Positions 14,329 to 20,967 of a stretch of DNA of 64,000 bases are shown here, piece by piece. The stretch comes from Blastococcus saxobsidens (GTDB lineage Bacteria; Actinomycetota; Actinomycetes; Mycobacteriales; Geodermatophilaceae). Positions within the stretch are counted from its first letter, which is position 1. Every line of letters begins with the position of its first letter. The translations under genes and the position numbers were made by a program. The stretch is taken from the NCBI RefSeq assembly GCF_002938435.1, contig NZ_POQT01000010.1:1-64000 (forward strand). The letters are read 5' to 3'. The notes beneath the pieces were generated by a model. It ran no database searches and was not told the DNA's origin. It worked only from the letters and a program-made list of their open reading frames with translations.

Positions 14329-14928
14329 GTGAGCAGCGACCCGATCCGCGTTCTGATCGCCGAGGACGAGGCGCTCATCCGCCTCGACCTCAAGGAGATG
14401 CTGGAGGAGGAGGGCTACCGCGTCGTCGCCGAGGTGGGCGACGGGCAGCAGGCCGTGGACCGCGCGCAGGAACTGCGCCCGGACCTGGTCATCCTCGACA
14501 TCCAGATGCCGGTCCTCGACGGCCTGTCCGCGGCCGAGCAGATCGCCTCGGCCCGCATCGCGCCCGTCATCGTCCTCACCGCGTTCAGCCAGCGGGAGCT
14601 CGTCGAGCGGGCGCGTGACGCCGGGGCCATGGCGTACCTGGTGAAGCCGTTCTCCAAGAACGACCTCGTGCCCGCCATCGAGGTGGCCCGCGGCCGGTTC
14701 GCCGAGATGACGGCCCTGGACGGGGAGGTCCGATCCCTGGAGGAGCGCCTCGAGACGCGCAAGGTGGTGGAGCAGGCCAAGGGCCGGCTCATGGCCGACC
14801 AGGGCATGTCGGAGGCCGACGCCTTCCGGTGGATCCAGCGCACCGCCATGAACCAGCGGACGAGCATGAAGGCGTTGGCGGAGTCGATCCTGGCCGGTCC
14901 GGAGACCGCTGAGGAGGCGCCGGCCTGA
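14329..14928 (+). CDS. pdtaR: ANTAR-domain response regulator (PdtaR-like)
   Basis: This two-domain regulator is expected to bind RNA hairpins and prevent transcription termination once phosphorylated. The receiver domain (residues 5-120) has the acidic pair D13/E14, phospho-acceptor D57 in LDIQMPVLDG, T84 and K106 in YLVKPF. The ANTAR domain (about 135-190) reads KVVEQAKGRLMADQGM, then AFRWIQRTAMNQR, the signature for RNA binding. Length (199 aa) and order match M. tuberculosis PdtaR, whose partner kinase PdtaS is encoded elsewhere. Start is the GTG at 14329; no partner kinase lies in the window. Location between a tRNA and pyk-like genes is conserved in actinobacteria as far as I recall. 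Confidence 0.92.
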   Translation: MSSDPIRVLIAEDEALIRLDLKEMLEEEGYRVVAEVGDGQQAVDRAQELRPDLVILDIQMPVLDGLSAAEQIASARIAPVIVLTAFSQRELVERARDAGAMAYLVKPFSKNDLVPAIEVARGRFAEMTALDGEVRSLEERLETRKVVEQAKGRLMADQGMSEADAFRWIQRTAMNQRTSMKALAESILAGPETAEEAPA

Positions 14929-15164
14929 CGCAGCCGGCGTGGCGCACCGGGAGCCGTCACTGTACGTTCGGCAGCGATCACACTGGGTCGAAGTTGTTCC
15001 AGCATGCGGATATCTTGGTCACGACCTCATCACGGTCGGTCCTCGCCCGGAGCCAGGGCCCCGGATGGCAGCTACGTTCTGCCCACTGATCGGGCGCCTC
15101 CCGGCTGGAACGACTTCCTCCGGGCGCCGCGCGACGCATGTCAGATGACACTGGGAGTTGCTTG

Positions 15165-16496
15165 ATGCGCACTGGCACCACTGCCCGAGGCATCGCCGTG
15201 ACCGGTGCCGCCCTCCTCGCTCTCACCGCTTGCGGTGGTGGCGACTCCGGCGGCGACACCGGCGACACCGGCGGCGACAGCGGCGAGAAGCAGGTCAACG
15301 TCTACGGCACCGACGGCAACATGGGCAACGCCCTCGGGGAGTCCTTCTCCGAGGAGGGCGCGCTCGCCGGGATGAAGGGCACCACCCCGCTGACCGACCT
15401 CGGTGACGATTTCACCGACCGGCTGCTGGAGATCGACCCGAACCTGCAGGACTTCAACTACGCCGGCGAGACCTACGACGCCGTCATGGTGGCGGCGATC
15501 GCCTCGCAGCTGGCCGGCAGCACCGACCCGGCCGTCTTCGCGCCCTACATCAACGGCGTGACCTTCGGTGGCGACACCTGCACCGACTTCGCCGCGTGCA
15601 AGGAGATCATCGACGGCGGCGGCAACCCCGACTTCGACGGCGTCTCCGGGCCGCTGGCGTTCGCCGAGGCCGGTGAGCCCTCCGTGGCGAGCTTCGGCAT
15701 CCTGCAGTTCGGCCCGGACAACGCCATCTCCGACGACACCACGTTCGAACTGGCCGGCGACGAGGCCAACGCGGCGTCCGACGAGGGCCCGGCCCCGGCA
15801 GCGCCCGGTGCCACCGCCGCGGACCCGCTGGTCGTCGGCACCCTGCTGCCGCAGACCGGTGACCTCGCCTTCCTCGGTCCCCCGGAGATCGCGGGCGCCG
15901 AGCTGGCCGTCCAGGAGATCAACGCCGCCGGCGGCGTGCTGGGCCAGCAGGTCCAGCTGATCCAGCGCGACTCCGGTGACACCTCCACCGACATCGCCAC
16001 CCAGTCGGTCGACGCCCTGCTGCAGCAGAACGTCGACGTGATCGTCGGTGCGGCCTCCTCGGCCGTGACCCGCACGGTCATCGACAAGATCACCGGTGCC
16101 GGCGTCGTGCAGATCTCGCCCGCCAACACGTCGGACGAGTTCACGACGTACAACGACAACGGTCTGTACTTCCGGACCGCTCCGCCGGACACCCTGCAGT
16201 CGCGGGCGCTCTCGGACCTGATCATCGAGGACGGCGCCAACACCGTCGGGATCCTGGCCCGGAACGACTCCTACGGCACGGGTCTGGCCGAGGGCACCGT
16301 CGACAACCTGGTGTCCAGCGGTCTGGCCGAGGACAGCATCGAGCTGGTCGTCTACGACCCCACGGCGGCCAACTTCGACGCCGAGGTCCAGCGGATGGTC
16401 GACCTCAACCCCGACGCCATCGTGGTGATCGGCTTCGAGGAGTCCGCCCGCATCATCGAGGGGCTCAACTCGCAGGGCATCGGCCCCCAGCGCTGA
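15165..16496 (+). CDS. livK: Branched-chain amino acid/amide ABC transporter binding lipoprotein, circularly permuted
   Basis: This is a secreted type I periplasmic-binding lipoprotein for a HAAT-family transporter. The start is the ATG at 15165, with GGGAG seven bases upstream. A signal peptide ends in the lipobox LTAC at Cys23, followed by a Gly/Asp spacer. The two halves of the fold are in reversed order. Residues 43-197 (VNVYGTDGN, GMKGTTP, DFNYAGETYDAVMVAA, SFGILQFG) are what normally forms the C-terminal half. After an Ala/Pro-rich linker (198-219), residues 220-443 (PLVVGTLLPQTGDLAFLGPP to SQGIGPQR) form the normal N-terminal half. The end GIGPQ and the beginning VNVYGTDG are adjacent in ordinary LivK proteins. 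All 443 codons are in one uninterrupted frame and a hairpin follows the stop, so this looks genuine. Confidence 0.88.
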   Translation: MRTGTTARGIAVTGAALLALTACGGGDSGGDTGDTGGDSGEKQVNVYGTDGNMGNALGESFSEEGALAGMKGTTPLTDLGDDFTDRLLEIDPNLQDFNYAGETYDAVMVAAIASQLAGSTDPAVFAPYINGVTFGGDTCTDFAACKEIIDGGGNPDFDGVSGPLAFAEAGEPSVASFGILQFGPDNAISDDTTFELAGDEANAASDEGPAPAAPGATAADPLVVGTLLPQTGDLAFLGPPEIAGAELAVQEINAAGGVLGQQVQLIQRDSGDTSTDIATQSVDALLQQNVDVIVGAASSAVTRTVIDKITGAGVVQISPANTSDEFTTYNDNGLYFRTAPPDTLQSRALSDLIIEDGANTVGILARNDSYGTGLAEGTVDNLVSSGLAEDSIELVVYDPTAANFDAEVQRMVDLNPDAIVVIGFEESARIIEGLNSQGIGPQR

Positions 16497-16531: not shown

Positions 16532-16567
16532 CAGTGGCCCGGCACCTCTCCAGGTGCCGGGCCACTG
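16532..16567 (+). terminator. Hairpin downstream of livK
   Basis: A perfect 16-bp stem (CAGTGGCCCGGCACCT with its complement at 16552-16567) closes a CTCC loop, 35 bp after the livK stop. No T tract follows, which is usual for high-GC actinobacterial terminators. Confidence 0.75.
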
Positions 16568-16690
16568 TCGTTCCCGGGTGGCCAGGTCCGGCAGCGGCTC
16601 CTGCGCCTCCAGGACGGCCGGCGGGCGCTCGCCGGGGAGCTGGGGCACCGGCCAGGCCGTGCGGGGTCCTGGTCGGGGCCGCGACGACAG

Positions 16691-16722
16691 CAGCGCCGGT
16701 CCCCGGGTGGGGACCGGCGCTG
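16691..16722 (-). terminator. Hairpin downstream of livF
   Basis: A 14-bp stem (CAGCGCCGGTCCCC paired with its complement ending at 16722) with a GGGT loop lies just past the livF stop on the minus strand. Together with the hairpin at 16532-16567 it insulates the two convergent transcripts. Confidence 0.7.
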
Positions 16723-16737
16723 CCGGGTGGAACGGGG

Positions 16738-17615
16738 TCAGTGCGCCTTGGCCAGCGTCCCGAGGTAGAGCTCGATGACCTTGGGGTCGTTCATGAGGGA
16801 CTCGCCGGTCGCCGTGTAGGCGTTGCGGCCCTGGTCGAGCACGTAGCCGCGGTCGCAGATCTGCAGGCACCGGCGTGCGTTCTGCTCGACCATGATGATC
16901 GAGACGCCGGTGGCGTTGATCCGCCGGCAGCGGATGAACACCTCGTCCTGGTAAGCGGGGGAGAGGCCGGCCGAGGGCTCGTCGAGCAGCAGCACCGACG
17001 GCTCCATCATCAGCGCCCGGCCCATCGCCACCATCTGGCGCTCGCCGCCGGACAGCGAGCCGGCCTTGATCTTCCGGCGCTCGCCGAGCATCGGGAACAG
17101 CTCGGCCACGTAGTCGAAGCGCTCCCGGAACACCTTCGGGCGGAGGTAGGCGCCCATCTCCATGTTCTCCTCGATGGTGAGCGAGGGGAACACGTTGTTG
17201 TTCTGGGGGACGTAGCCGACACCGAGGGACACCAGCCGGTGCGCCGGGGCGGAGGTGATCTCCTCCCCGCGCAGGGTGACCGCGCCCGAGCGGACCGGGA
17301 TCAGGCCGAACAGCGTCTTGAGCAGCGTCGACTTGCCGGCCCCGTTCGGGCCGATGATGCCGACGAGCTCGCCCTCCTGCAGGTAGAAGTCGCAGCCGTT
17401 GAGGATGTTGACGCCGGGCACGTACCCGGCGACCAGCTCGTCGGCCCGCACCAGGGCCCCCTCCGCGAGGCGCGCGTGCTCCCCGCGGGTGGCGGCCTTC
17501 TCGGCGGGGGACAGGTCCGTGGTCCCGGCGAGGGCGCGCTCGTCCGGCGTGCCGCCGTCGTCACCCTTCTCGACCTGGAACATCGGGTCCTGGCTGGCGG
17601 GGTCGTCCATGGTGC

Positions 17616-17619
<4 letters not shown>
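16738..17619 (-). CDS. livF: Branched-chain amino acid ABC transporter ATP-binding protein LivF
   Basis: LivF is one of the two cytoplasmic ATPases that power HAAT-family uptake. The 293-residue protein has Walker A GPNGAGKST, the Q-loop region YVPQNNNVFPSL, the ABC signature LSGGERQM, Walker B LLLDEPSAGLS and a switch histidine region. A 50-residue polar N-terminal extension precedes the ATPase core and is unusual for LivF, which is normally about 235 residues. Start is the ATG at 17619, overlapping the livG stop by 4 bp. It is the last gene of the minus-strand livH-M-G-F operon. Confidence 0.94.
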
Positions 17620-18600
<981 letters not shown>

Positions 18601-18611
<11 letters not shown>

Positions 18612-19599
18612 CGAGCATCACCTCTCGTCGGTCACCGAAGATGCCCTGCGGCCGGAAGACCAGCAGCAGGATCAGCCCGAGACCGATGATGACGAAGCGG
18701 ATCTGGGCGACGTCGGTCGTCGAGAGCAGGCCCGCGGGGATCACGCCGTTCTCGATCAGGCTCCGGAGCCCGGAGTCGGCGAACTGGATGATGAAGTACA
18801 TCAGCATCGCGCCGACCACGGGGCCGAGCACGCGCGCCGCGCCGCCGAGGATCAGCGCCGCGTAGGCCAGGAAGGTGTTCGCGTTCTGGTACTGGTCCGG
18901 GGTCGTCGACCCGGTGCCGACGGCGTAGATCATGCCGCCGAGCGCACCGAAGATCCCGCCCAGGACCAGCGCCTGCATCTTGTAGACGTACACGTTCTTG
19001 CCGAGGGCGCGCACGGCGTCCTCGTCCTCGCGGATGGACTTGACGACACGGCCCCACGGGCTCCGGACCAGGCCCCACACCAGCAGCGACGCGAGCGCCA
19101 CCAGGGTCCAGCCGACCGCGGCGACCCACAGGTCCGCCCCGCTCCAGAAGGTCCCCAGCAGGGAGTACCGGCGGCCGGTGTCCCAGGGGGCCAGCTCGAC
19201 GAACTGCCGGTTGAAGCCGGAGATGCCCCGGGACCCGTTCGTGACCGGCGTGGCCGAGACCGAGCGGAACAGCAGCCGCAGCCCCTCGGCGGCGGCGATG
19301 GTCGCGATCGCCAGGTAGTCCGCGCGCAGCCGCAGGGTCGGCAACCCGAGGAGCAGGGCCAGGACGACCGCGGCGACCAGCCCGATCAGCACGCCGACCC
19401 AGAAGTCGAGGCCCCACTGGCTCACGGAGATGGCGATGCCGTACGCGCCGAGGAGGGCGAAGGCGATCTGGCCGAAGTTGAGCAGGCCGGCGTAGCCGAA
19501 CTGCATGTTGATGCCGATGGCGAGGAGCGCCAGGAAGACGGCCTGGAAGCCGATCCCCGCCTTGACGGCGATGGCCACTGCGTCGATGAATTCACCCAT
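18601..19599 (-). CDS. livM: Branched-chain amino acid ABC transporter permease LivM
   Basis: LivM is the second membrane permease. The 332-residue protein is mostly hydrophobic with about eight to ten membrane segments. It contains the family motif GYAGLLNFGQIAFALLGAYG near residue 35 and the cytoplasmic coupling loop SIREDEDAVRALGKNVYVYK. The C-terminal FRPQGIFGDRRE is the usual LivM ending. Start is the ATG at 19599, separated by three bases from the livH stop. Confidence 0.94.
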
Positions 19600-19602
19600 T
19601 GC

Positions 19603-20967
19603 TCAACCCACCCGTACCCGGCTGCCGAGGATGCCCTGCGGGCGGACCATGAGGATGATGATCAGGAGCAGGAGCCCGCCGACGTACTTGACGTCGTTCG
19701 GGATCACCAGCGTGGACATCTGCACGAAGACGCCCACGACGAGGCTGCCGACGAGGGCGCCGTAGGCGGTCCCCAGCCCGCCCAGGGTGACCCCGGCGAA
19801 CATCAGCAGCAGCAGGCGGAAGCCCATGTCCCACTGGACCTCGTCGGACAGGCCGAGCAGCACGCCACCGAGGGCGGCCAGCGCCCCGCCCATCATCCAG
19901 ACGACGAGGATCACGCGGTTCACGTCGATGCCGGACGACGCCGCGAGGTCGCGGTTGTCGGCGACCGCGCGCATCGCCTTGCCGATCTTGGTCTTCTGCA
20001 GCATGAGCGCGACCAGGACCAGCACGACCAGCGCGATGATGATCGAGGCGAGGGCCTTGTTGGTCAGCGTGAACGCGCCGTAGCTCACCGCGCGCTGACC
20101 GCGGTAGTCGGCGTAGGCCTCCGAGCCGCCCCCGAAGAAGATCTGGTACGCGTAGCGCAGCAGCAGCGACAGGCCGATCGAGATGACCAGCGCGGCCACC
20201 AGGCCGGTGCCGCGGCGGCGCAGCGGGCGCCAGAGCAGCCGCTCGTTGAGCAGGCCCACGCCGGCGCCGATGACCATCGCCAGCAGCGCGGCCGGGATCA
20301 GCGGGACGCCGCCCTCGACGTTGATGAACCAGGCGACGATCGCGCCGATGGTCACCAGCTCGCCGTGCGCGAAGTTGGTGAGCCCCGTGGTCCCGAAGAT
20401 CAGCGACAGCCCGACCGCGGCCATGGCGATCAGCAGGCCGAAACGGAAGCCGTCGACCAGCAGCTGCACCCACCGGGTGTTGCCGCCCCCGGCGCCCCCG
20501 CTGCCGTCGTCCAGGCCGATGATCACGCCCTGGTTGCGGTTGGCGTCGACCGTCACGGTCCGGCTGTTGCCGGAGCTGAACTCGACGCCCTCGGGGAGGG
20601 AGTCCTCGGGGACGGTCACGGTGTACTGGCCGGGACCGGGCAGGTCGACGACGAACCGGCCGTTCTCGTCGGTCTCGTCGGTGCCGACCTCGTCACCGTC
20701 CGGCGTGGTGACGACGACCTCGATGCCCTCGATGGGACCGCTCACGCTGGTCCGCATGGTGCCGGAGATCTGCTCGCTGGCGTCGTCGGCGGCAAGGGCG
20801 GCGCCGGGGACCAGCGCGGCCAGACCGGCGGTGAAGAGGGCGACCAGCAGCAGCCGGAGCGCGGTCAGACCTCGACGCGGTGGCCTACCGGCCGGCGTCC
20901 GAGCCCCCGCTCTCGTGGGACTGCTACGTCGACCGTGCCGGCGGACACGGTCCGTCGGGTGCGTCAC
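19603..20967 (-). CDS. livH: Branched-chain amino acid ABC transporter permease LivH with fused secreted N-terminal domain
   Basis: The C-terminal 290 residues are an ordinary LivH permease: GLSLIFGTTGLTNFAHGEL, KTKIGKAMRAVADNRDLA and the terminal MVRPQGILGSRVRVG. In front lies an unusual extension of about 150 residues. It has a basic start, a hydrophobic signal-like segment ending GAALAADD (near residue 60), then a small beta domain with PIEGIEVVVTTPDGDEVG and DENGRFVVDLPGPGQYTV. That pattern resembles carboxypeptidase-regulatory-like or SdrD-type modules, which would lie outside the membrane. The GTG at 20967 has GAGGAGG four bases upstream, so the extension is translated. It is the first gene of the livH-M-G-F operon. 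Confidence 0.9.
   Translation of the reverse strand: MTHPTDRVRRHGRRSSPTRAGARTPAGRPPRRGLTALRLLLVALFTAGLAALVPGAALAADDASEQISGTMRTSVSGPIEGIEVVVTTPDGDEVGTDETDENGRFVVDLPGPGQYTVTVPEDSLPEGVEFSSGNSRTVTVDANRNQGVIIGLDDGSGGAGGGNTRWVQLLVDGFRFGLLIAMAAVGLSLIFGTTGLTNFAHGELVTIGAIVAWFINVEGGVPLIPAALLAMVIGAGVGLLNERLLWRPLRRRGTGLVAALVISIGLSLLLRYAYQIFFGGGSEAYADYRGQRAVSYGAFTLTNKALASIIIALVVLVLVALMLQKTKIGKAMRAVADNRDLAASSGIDVNRVILVVWMMGGALAALGGVLLGLSDEVQWDMGFRLLLLMFAGVTLGGLGTAYGALVGSLVVGVFVQMSTLVIPNDVKYVGGLLLLIIILMVRPQGILGSRVRVG

Follow-up and report, generated by a model that had tools for sequence, protein, structure and literature searches.

Natural circular permutation of proteins is well known, and duplication counts as one of the two main models for its origin (PMC3320104). 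Saposin and swaposin, DNA methyltransferases and cpRAS GTPases stand in permuted relationships of the same kind as the one described below. The CPSARST study groups glycine-betaine-binding proteins, molybdate-binding proteins and CysB into a natural permuted family at under 24% identity (PMC2395249). For type I binding proteins, work on ribose-binding protein reports that engineered permuted halves fold well and that single lobes tolerate permutation (PMC9815098). Here we describe a gene at positions 15165..16496 of a 64,000-nucleotide stretch of the Blastococcus saxobsidens genome (contig NZ_POQT01000010.1, positions 1 to 64,000; hereafter the window), whose product is a LivK-type substrate-binding lipoprotein with its two halves in exchanged order. 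We consider it probable (about 0.8) that this is a working, membrane-tethered HAAT-type binding protein that was permuted in place, and that such permutation took place in at least four, probably five, independent events, a reading that draws on the computed chain order, predicted fold, locus, conservation, separate tree positions and breakpoints.

The window protein resembles LivK and LivJ (LIVBP and LBP; HAAT family, Peripla_BP_6, type I fold) in its predicted fold, transporter neighbors, lipoprotein signal and, after the halves are reordered, its colinear match, and differs from them in that the chain is permuted, the tether would enter lobe 2, and an ordered connector joins the original ends. 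The glycine-betaine, molybdate, and CysB proteins, which we take to have type II folds, likewise exemplify natural permutation among binding proteins of ATP-binding cassette (ABC) importers and their relatives, but the relation there is a remote structural one, whereas here type I orthologues reach up to 74% identity in one half. The ribose-binding protein permutants are engineered single lobes, whereas the proteins described here are natural and full-length; in the open-access literature searched, no paper was recognized as describing natural permutation in a LivK-type or any other type I binding protein. Unlike natural permutants in general, which are mostly known as remote relations with a route that is hard to trace, linear and permuted orthologues here share a locus, and permutation recurs at two neighboring sites, which allows individual events to be mapped onto a phylogeny and their number estimated. 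If five or more such permutations were fed by tandem duplication and favored by selection on the tether, the tentative version considered below, chain topology would have evolved repeatably, and type I binding proteins might here have their first known natural permutants. Close linear and permuted orthologues, tandem pairs, and several origins at two neighboring sites turn into testable questions whether permutation passes through duplication, what limits the position of the new ends, and whether selection acts on the move of the membrane tether. The permuted proteins would also offer naturally tuned scaffolds for amino-acid biosensors.

The two halves of the protein are exchanged

The gene and its parts, all on the + strand, are as follows.

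15165..16496, +, permuted livK-type substrate-binding lipoprotein gene, 443 aa (open reading frame, Pfam, LIVBP alignment, AlphaFold model)
15165..15233, +, signal peptide and lipobox (LTAC, residues 20-23; sequence reading, conservation of Cys23)
15234..15290, +, low-complexity tether after the lipobox, residues 24-42 (sequence; predicted local distance difference test (pLDDT) score under 50 for residues 1-39)
15291..15755, +, original C-terminal half (C half), residues 43-197, now first (alignments, breakpoint mapping)
15756..15821, +, connector between the former C and N termini, residues 198-219 (pLDDT about 91; ratio of nonsynonymous to synonymous substitution rates, dN/dS)
15822..16493, +, original N-terminal half (N half), residues 220-443, now last (Pfam, LIVBP alignment, structure search, breakpoint mapping)

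Pfam Peripla_BP_6 positions 2-217 of 343 align to residues 222-441 only, the N half alone scoring 115 bits against a cutoff of 31.7, and the linear orthologue L031 (genome G057) matches the window protein in two blocks of reversed order, query 203-443 and then 43-199. When the halves are rejoined in the usual order, the chain gives a single colinear match both to Peripla_BP_6 (2-313 of 343, 127.4 bits) and to LIVBP 1z15 (10-305). Both halves are therefore homologous to Peripla_BP_6 and LIVBP, and the two segments are exchanged with little lost or gained and the same overall fold; we file the protein as a permuted variant of the LivK family because the usual chain order fails, the C half preceding the N half. 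A first-pass annotation, made from the letters of the window, had proposed precisely this: an open reading frame at these coordinates, a lipobox, and a clean circular permutation with residues 43-197 placed before residues 220-443. This reading holds.

The C half opens with the strand VNVYG and the loop motif GTDGN, and the N half closes at the breakpoint GIGPQR; no vestiges of a second C half were seen by eye past the stop codon in the window. A further in-frame ATG, a possible alternative start, lies upstream at 15138. Cys23, the likely lipidated residue, is nearly invariant across 36 permuted rows. An NCBIfam profile search of the window protein returned sub-cutoff matches only, and since standard profiles match one half only, such proteins could be wrongly labeled as partial. 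Residues 139 and 145 of P0001, both cysteines in the C half, are invariant in the permuted alignments and in 12 aligned linear rows, and perhaps form a disulfide of the subfamily.

The permuted chain is predicted to form one complete fold

The AlphaFold model of the window protein is one compact two-lobed type I fold (pLDDT 88.7), the order of its secondary-structure elements being a rotation of the linear order; the comparison was made by element order. Given this single confident fold, we reject two different incomplete domains, one of the outcomes that the first-pass annotation had named as fatal to its reading. A sequential structural search with the permuted model aligned residues 218-443 in most rows, which we would not take to mean that residues 43-197 lack a fold. 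The connector is modeled at a pLDDT of about 91 and has a dN/dS of 0-0.09 (four pairwise comparisons over only 22 codons), and on both counts is probably ordered rather than a loose linker. Motifs near the ligand appear retained in a by-eye comparison with LIVBP and LBP.

The gene is conserved and under purifying selection

Among 397 sampled genomes of the order, the 75 from the window's family include 67 that match the window protein at E <= 1e-25, each with a one-piece row spanning nearly the whole query; in a smaller sample, the one-piece near-full match was found in 28 of 36 family genomes, with a remote match only in one more. None of the 8 match-less family genomes has a livM-like gene at >35% identity, so the whole locus seems to have been lost there. 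Relatives with the same order of halves include ten single-contig genomes, and the normal order that resequencing might have revealed was not encountered in them. Whole-gene dN/dS is 0.145-0.227 (Nei-Gojobori, four close relatives), with 0.20-0.34 for the C half and 0.145-0.20 for the N half in the same four relatives: both halves are under purifying selection. The relatives, the single-contig genomes, and the dN/dS values rule out an assembly artefact or a pseudogene.

A chance fusion of two incomplete proteins, or a decaying or misassembled gene, would fit the coverage of just one half by standard profiles, but the confident single fold, the conservation across families, the ten single-contig genomes, and the purifying selection make such an accident extremely improbable.

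Four genomes of genus g4 (G025, G107, G154, and G280) carry an additional permuted copy, which shares 64-66% identity with the window protein and lies on another contig or about 1.9 Mb distant; the copy in G025 (L085, contig C11) has no other window genes alongside. In one metagenome-assembled genome of the Acidimicrobiales (L251), the middle stretch of the permuted protein looks out of frame by eye, perhaps through compensating frameshifts or sequencing errors.

Permuted genes form several lineages separated by linear genes

Permuted genes fall into group A (Geodermatophilaceae and Micromonosporaceae; our families f1, f13, and f16), group B (two actinomycete families), group C (Nocardioidaceae, f41), group D1 (Acidimicrobiia), and group D2 (Salsipaludibacter). 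A class-wide sample of 394 genomes yielded one-piece matches over both halves in f39, f49, and f41 besides f1 and f16. Among 245 sampled Nocardioidaceae genomes, 116 match at E <= 1e-60, 16 of them over both halves in one piece; the remaining rows, among the matches listed, cover one half only, as linear genes do. The 16 permuted Nocardioidaceae genes form one clade (support 98/86), sister to 25 linear f41 rows, with one further linear f41 row placed elsewhere in the tree. When 396 genomes from across the phylum were searched with a query of the second permuted type, 56 had a match, including 6 outside f1 and f16 with a one-piece match over both halves; judged by their named relatives, these 6 belong to Acidimicrobiia and Salsipaludibacter. 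A set of 80 loci taken from named genomes holds 67 permuted genes, 12 linear genes, and 1 incomplete gene, proportions that are uninformative on frequency because the set was drawn with a permuted query.

Trees were built from both halves set in one common order, the first from 57 of 79 rows after 22 close relatives were dropped, and two later ones thinned likewise; the tests behind the values given below for A+B, A+C, and A+B+C, and behind the first of the two for B+C, excluded group D, the Micromonosporaceae rows, and three distant linear rows. Linear genes separate the permuted lineages. Forcing all permuted rows then known (19 of A, 6 of B, and 1 of C) into one clade cost 213 log-likelihood units (approximately unbiased test, p-AU 4e-35), by which constrained-tree tests one origin of all permuted forms is rejected. 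Single clades were likewise rejected for A+B (p 2.5e-4), for B+C (p 1.6e-3; 8e-4 in another test), for A+C on the N half (p 1.8e-4), and for A+B+C by each half alone (3e-5 and 1e-3), and weaker tests gave p 0.013 for A+D1 and p 0.024 for D1+D2. Within A (f1, f13, and f16), a single origin was not rejected (p 0.40 and 0.52), one origin being as good as two. A 66-row tree requires 5 changes of order, at least 4 of them forced by well-supported branches. Judged from these trees, at least four origins (A, B, C, and D1) are supported, and D2 is probably a fifth. The first-pass view that natural permutation is rare in this fold accordingly needs changing, given at least four apparent origins within one orthologous locus.

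The trees also bear on a single deep permutation followed by several re-linearisations, which is possible in principle by the same route as permutation, and which the linear f8 and f15 sequences adjoining group A, in a weakly resolved part of the tree, might suggest. It is very unlikely, as the outgroup rows are linear, solved LivK-type chains fit the linear model throughout, there are two distinct breakpoints, and parsimony gives 5 changes from a linear root.

Linear and permuted genes share a locus

The permuted gene of the window faces a set of liv-type permease and ATPase genes and is preceded by a response regulator gene.

14329..14928, +, ANTAR response regulator, upstream of the permuted gene (Pfam, synteny)
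16532..16567, no strand assigned, hairpin 3' of the gene with 16-nt arms (16532-16547 and 16552-16567) and a 4-nt loop (inverted-repeat search, folding)
16738..17619, -, livF-like ATPase, convergent with the permuted gene (Pfam ABC_tran)
17616..18611, -, livG-like ATPase (Pfam ABC_tran and BCA_ABC_TP_C)
18601..19599, -, livM-like permease (Pfam BPD_transp_2)
19603..20967, -, livH-like permease with an N-terminal CarboxypepD_reg-like domain (Pfam BPD_transp_2 and CarboxypepD_reg)

In many of the loci examined, the response regulator is a syntenic neighbor of linear and permuted livK alike. The corresponding position, next to the response regulator and/or livF, is taken by a linear livK in loci of families f4, f8, f10, and f15, in three f16 genomes, and in many loci of other families; the unpermuted relatives sought by the first-pass annotation thus exist at the same liv locus in many actinobacteria, and the permutation most likely occurred in place. 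In the loci examined, permuted genes of f1, f13, f39, f41, f49, and the Acidimicrobiia mostly adjoin liv genes. Three genomes of genus g71 (family f16) hold a linear livK besides the permuted gene, and in G374, the one examined, the linear gene sits at the liv locus.

Breakpoints, proposed function, and probable route of origin

Breakpoints of groups A, B, and C coincide to within about 2 residues, and D1 and D2 share a second breakpoint about 22 residues further on. Mapped onto the linear reference P0002, the 123 distinct permuted proteins have their ends at 271-274 (106 of them), at 292-294 (16), and at 200 (one, on a contig edge), while the C part begins at 265-273 or 285-294; the 123 proteins are not 123 events, because many are close relatives. 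A single strand-helix unit, VYGTDGNMGNALGE in the window, lies between the two sites, the first of which is a helix-to-strand loop in the models. Given the LIVBP domain limits and the general build of the fold, both sites presumably lie in lobe 2, off the ligand cleft. If about 27 loops were equally likely to be cut, the coincidence would have, by rough estimate, a probability of the order of 1e-4 or less.

We propose that, after export, Cys23 would receive the lipid and that a flexible segment entering lobe 2 would serve as the tether. By analogy with its family and neighbors, it would close on an amino acid or amide and pass the ligand to LivH-LivM, powered by LivG-LivF. The original ends would be joined by the ordered connector and the new ends placed in the lobe 2 helix-to-strand loop, with fold and ligand site kept; this placement would shift the lipid tether from lobe 1 to lobe 2, with whatever advantage that may bring.

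At the ancestral livK locus, a tandem duplication was probably followed by in-frame deletions and by trimming of redundant ends. Deletions would have placed the C half of the first copy directly behind that copy's signal peptide, linked this C half to the N half of the second copy, and ended the gene after that N half. If an intermediate protein briefly carried the strand-helix unit at each of its ends, loss of one copy or of the other would yield the two breakpoints, whose precision would be accounted for if the redundant copy was trimmed back to the edge of the structure. Tandem linear livK pairs indeed lie between the response regulator and livF in G825 (L191), G525 (L114/L193), and G688 (L115), from two families. 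Tandem duplication with partial deletions, as the first-pass annotation had suggested, is therefore plausible: the tandem linear pairs in three genomes fit it, and the lack of a fused duplicate among the open reading frames classified speaks against it. A more specific version, in which five or more in-place permutations into one lobe 2 stretch were fed by tandem duplication and the tether move was selected, is tentative and falls short of even odds.

Several observations weigh against repeated permutation of a working transport protein in place. The new C termini of A, B, and C agree to about 2 residues, closer than we would expect of independent events unless the end is set by trimming or by structure; such closeness might point to a single origin whose traces gene conversion has blurred. 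Taken alone, the C half fails to reject B+C (p 0.16) and the N half fails to reject A+B (p 0.14); the permuted sub-groups were named after the trees were seen, and the p values are uncorrected. Fused N-C-N or N-C-N-C genes were absent from the open reading frames classified, which cover the fetched loci only, and because no fused intermediate was seen, we infer the duplication route rather than observe it. In Micromonosporaceae (f16; L077-L083 and L140), liv genes accompany the permuted gene in 0 of 8 loci (16-17 kb fetched), so that the function of the protein there is less sure; an orphan binding protein or a sensor is possible.

A rival reading is one ancient permutation, by which a permuted paralogue would have spread by transfer and replaced resident linear genes, while gene conversion with those residents gave its halves a likeness to the local linear sequences. 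The near-identical ends of A, B, and C, B and C linkers that are alike in length and, by eye, partly in letters, and the presence of both forms together in the three g71 genomes all agree with such a history. Against it, A+B+C is rejected by both halves separately, the permuted genes of f1, f13, f39, f41, f49, and the Acidimicrobiia mostly adjoin liv genes in the loci examined, D has a different breakpoint, and many losses or reversions would be required; moreover, the linear and permuted copies of g71 lie far apart in the tree and have thus not converged. We regard one ancient permutation as unlikely and retain repeated permutation in place as the preferred reading.

Other observations on the neighboring genes

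The hairpin behind the permuted gene, noted in the first-pass annotation, is real (minimum free energy -40.2 kcal/mol, z -5.8) and is a putative terminator. A second perfect inverted repeat with 15-nt arms (16690-16723) lies just downstream of livF on the livF strand, so both convergent transcripts may carry their own hairpin. Across 26 loci examined, 25 of 25 livH hits have an extension of 130-340 aa before the permease domain, and in 10 of 10 scanned extended livH the CarboxypepD_reg-like (Ig-like) domain gave a Pfam match, partly below cutoff. Of the extended genes, 17 lie beside permuted and 8 beside linear livK; the extension, found with both forms alike, is not tied to the permutation.
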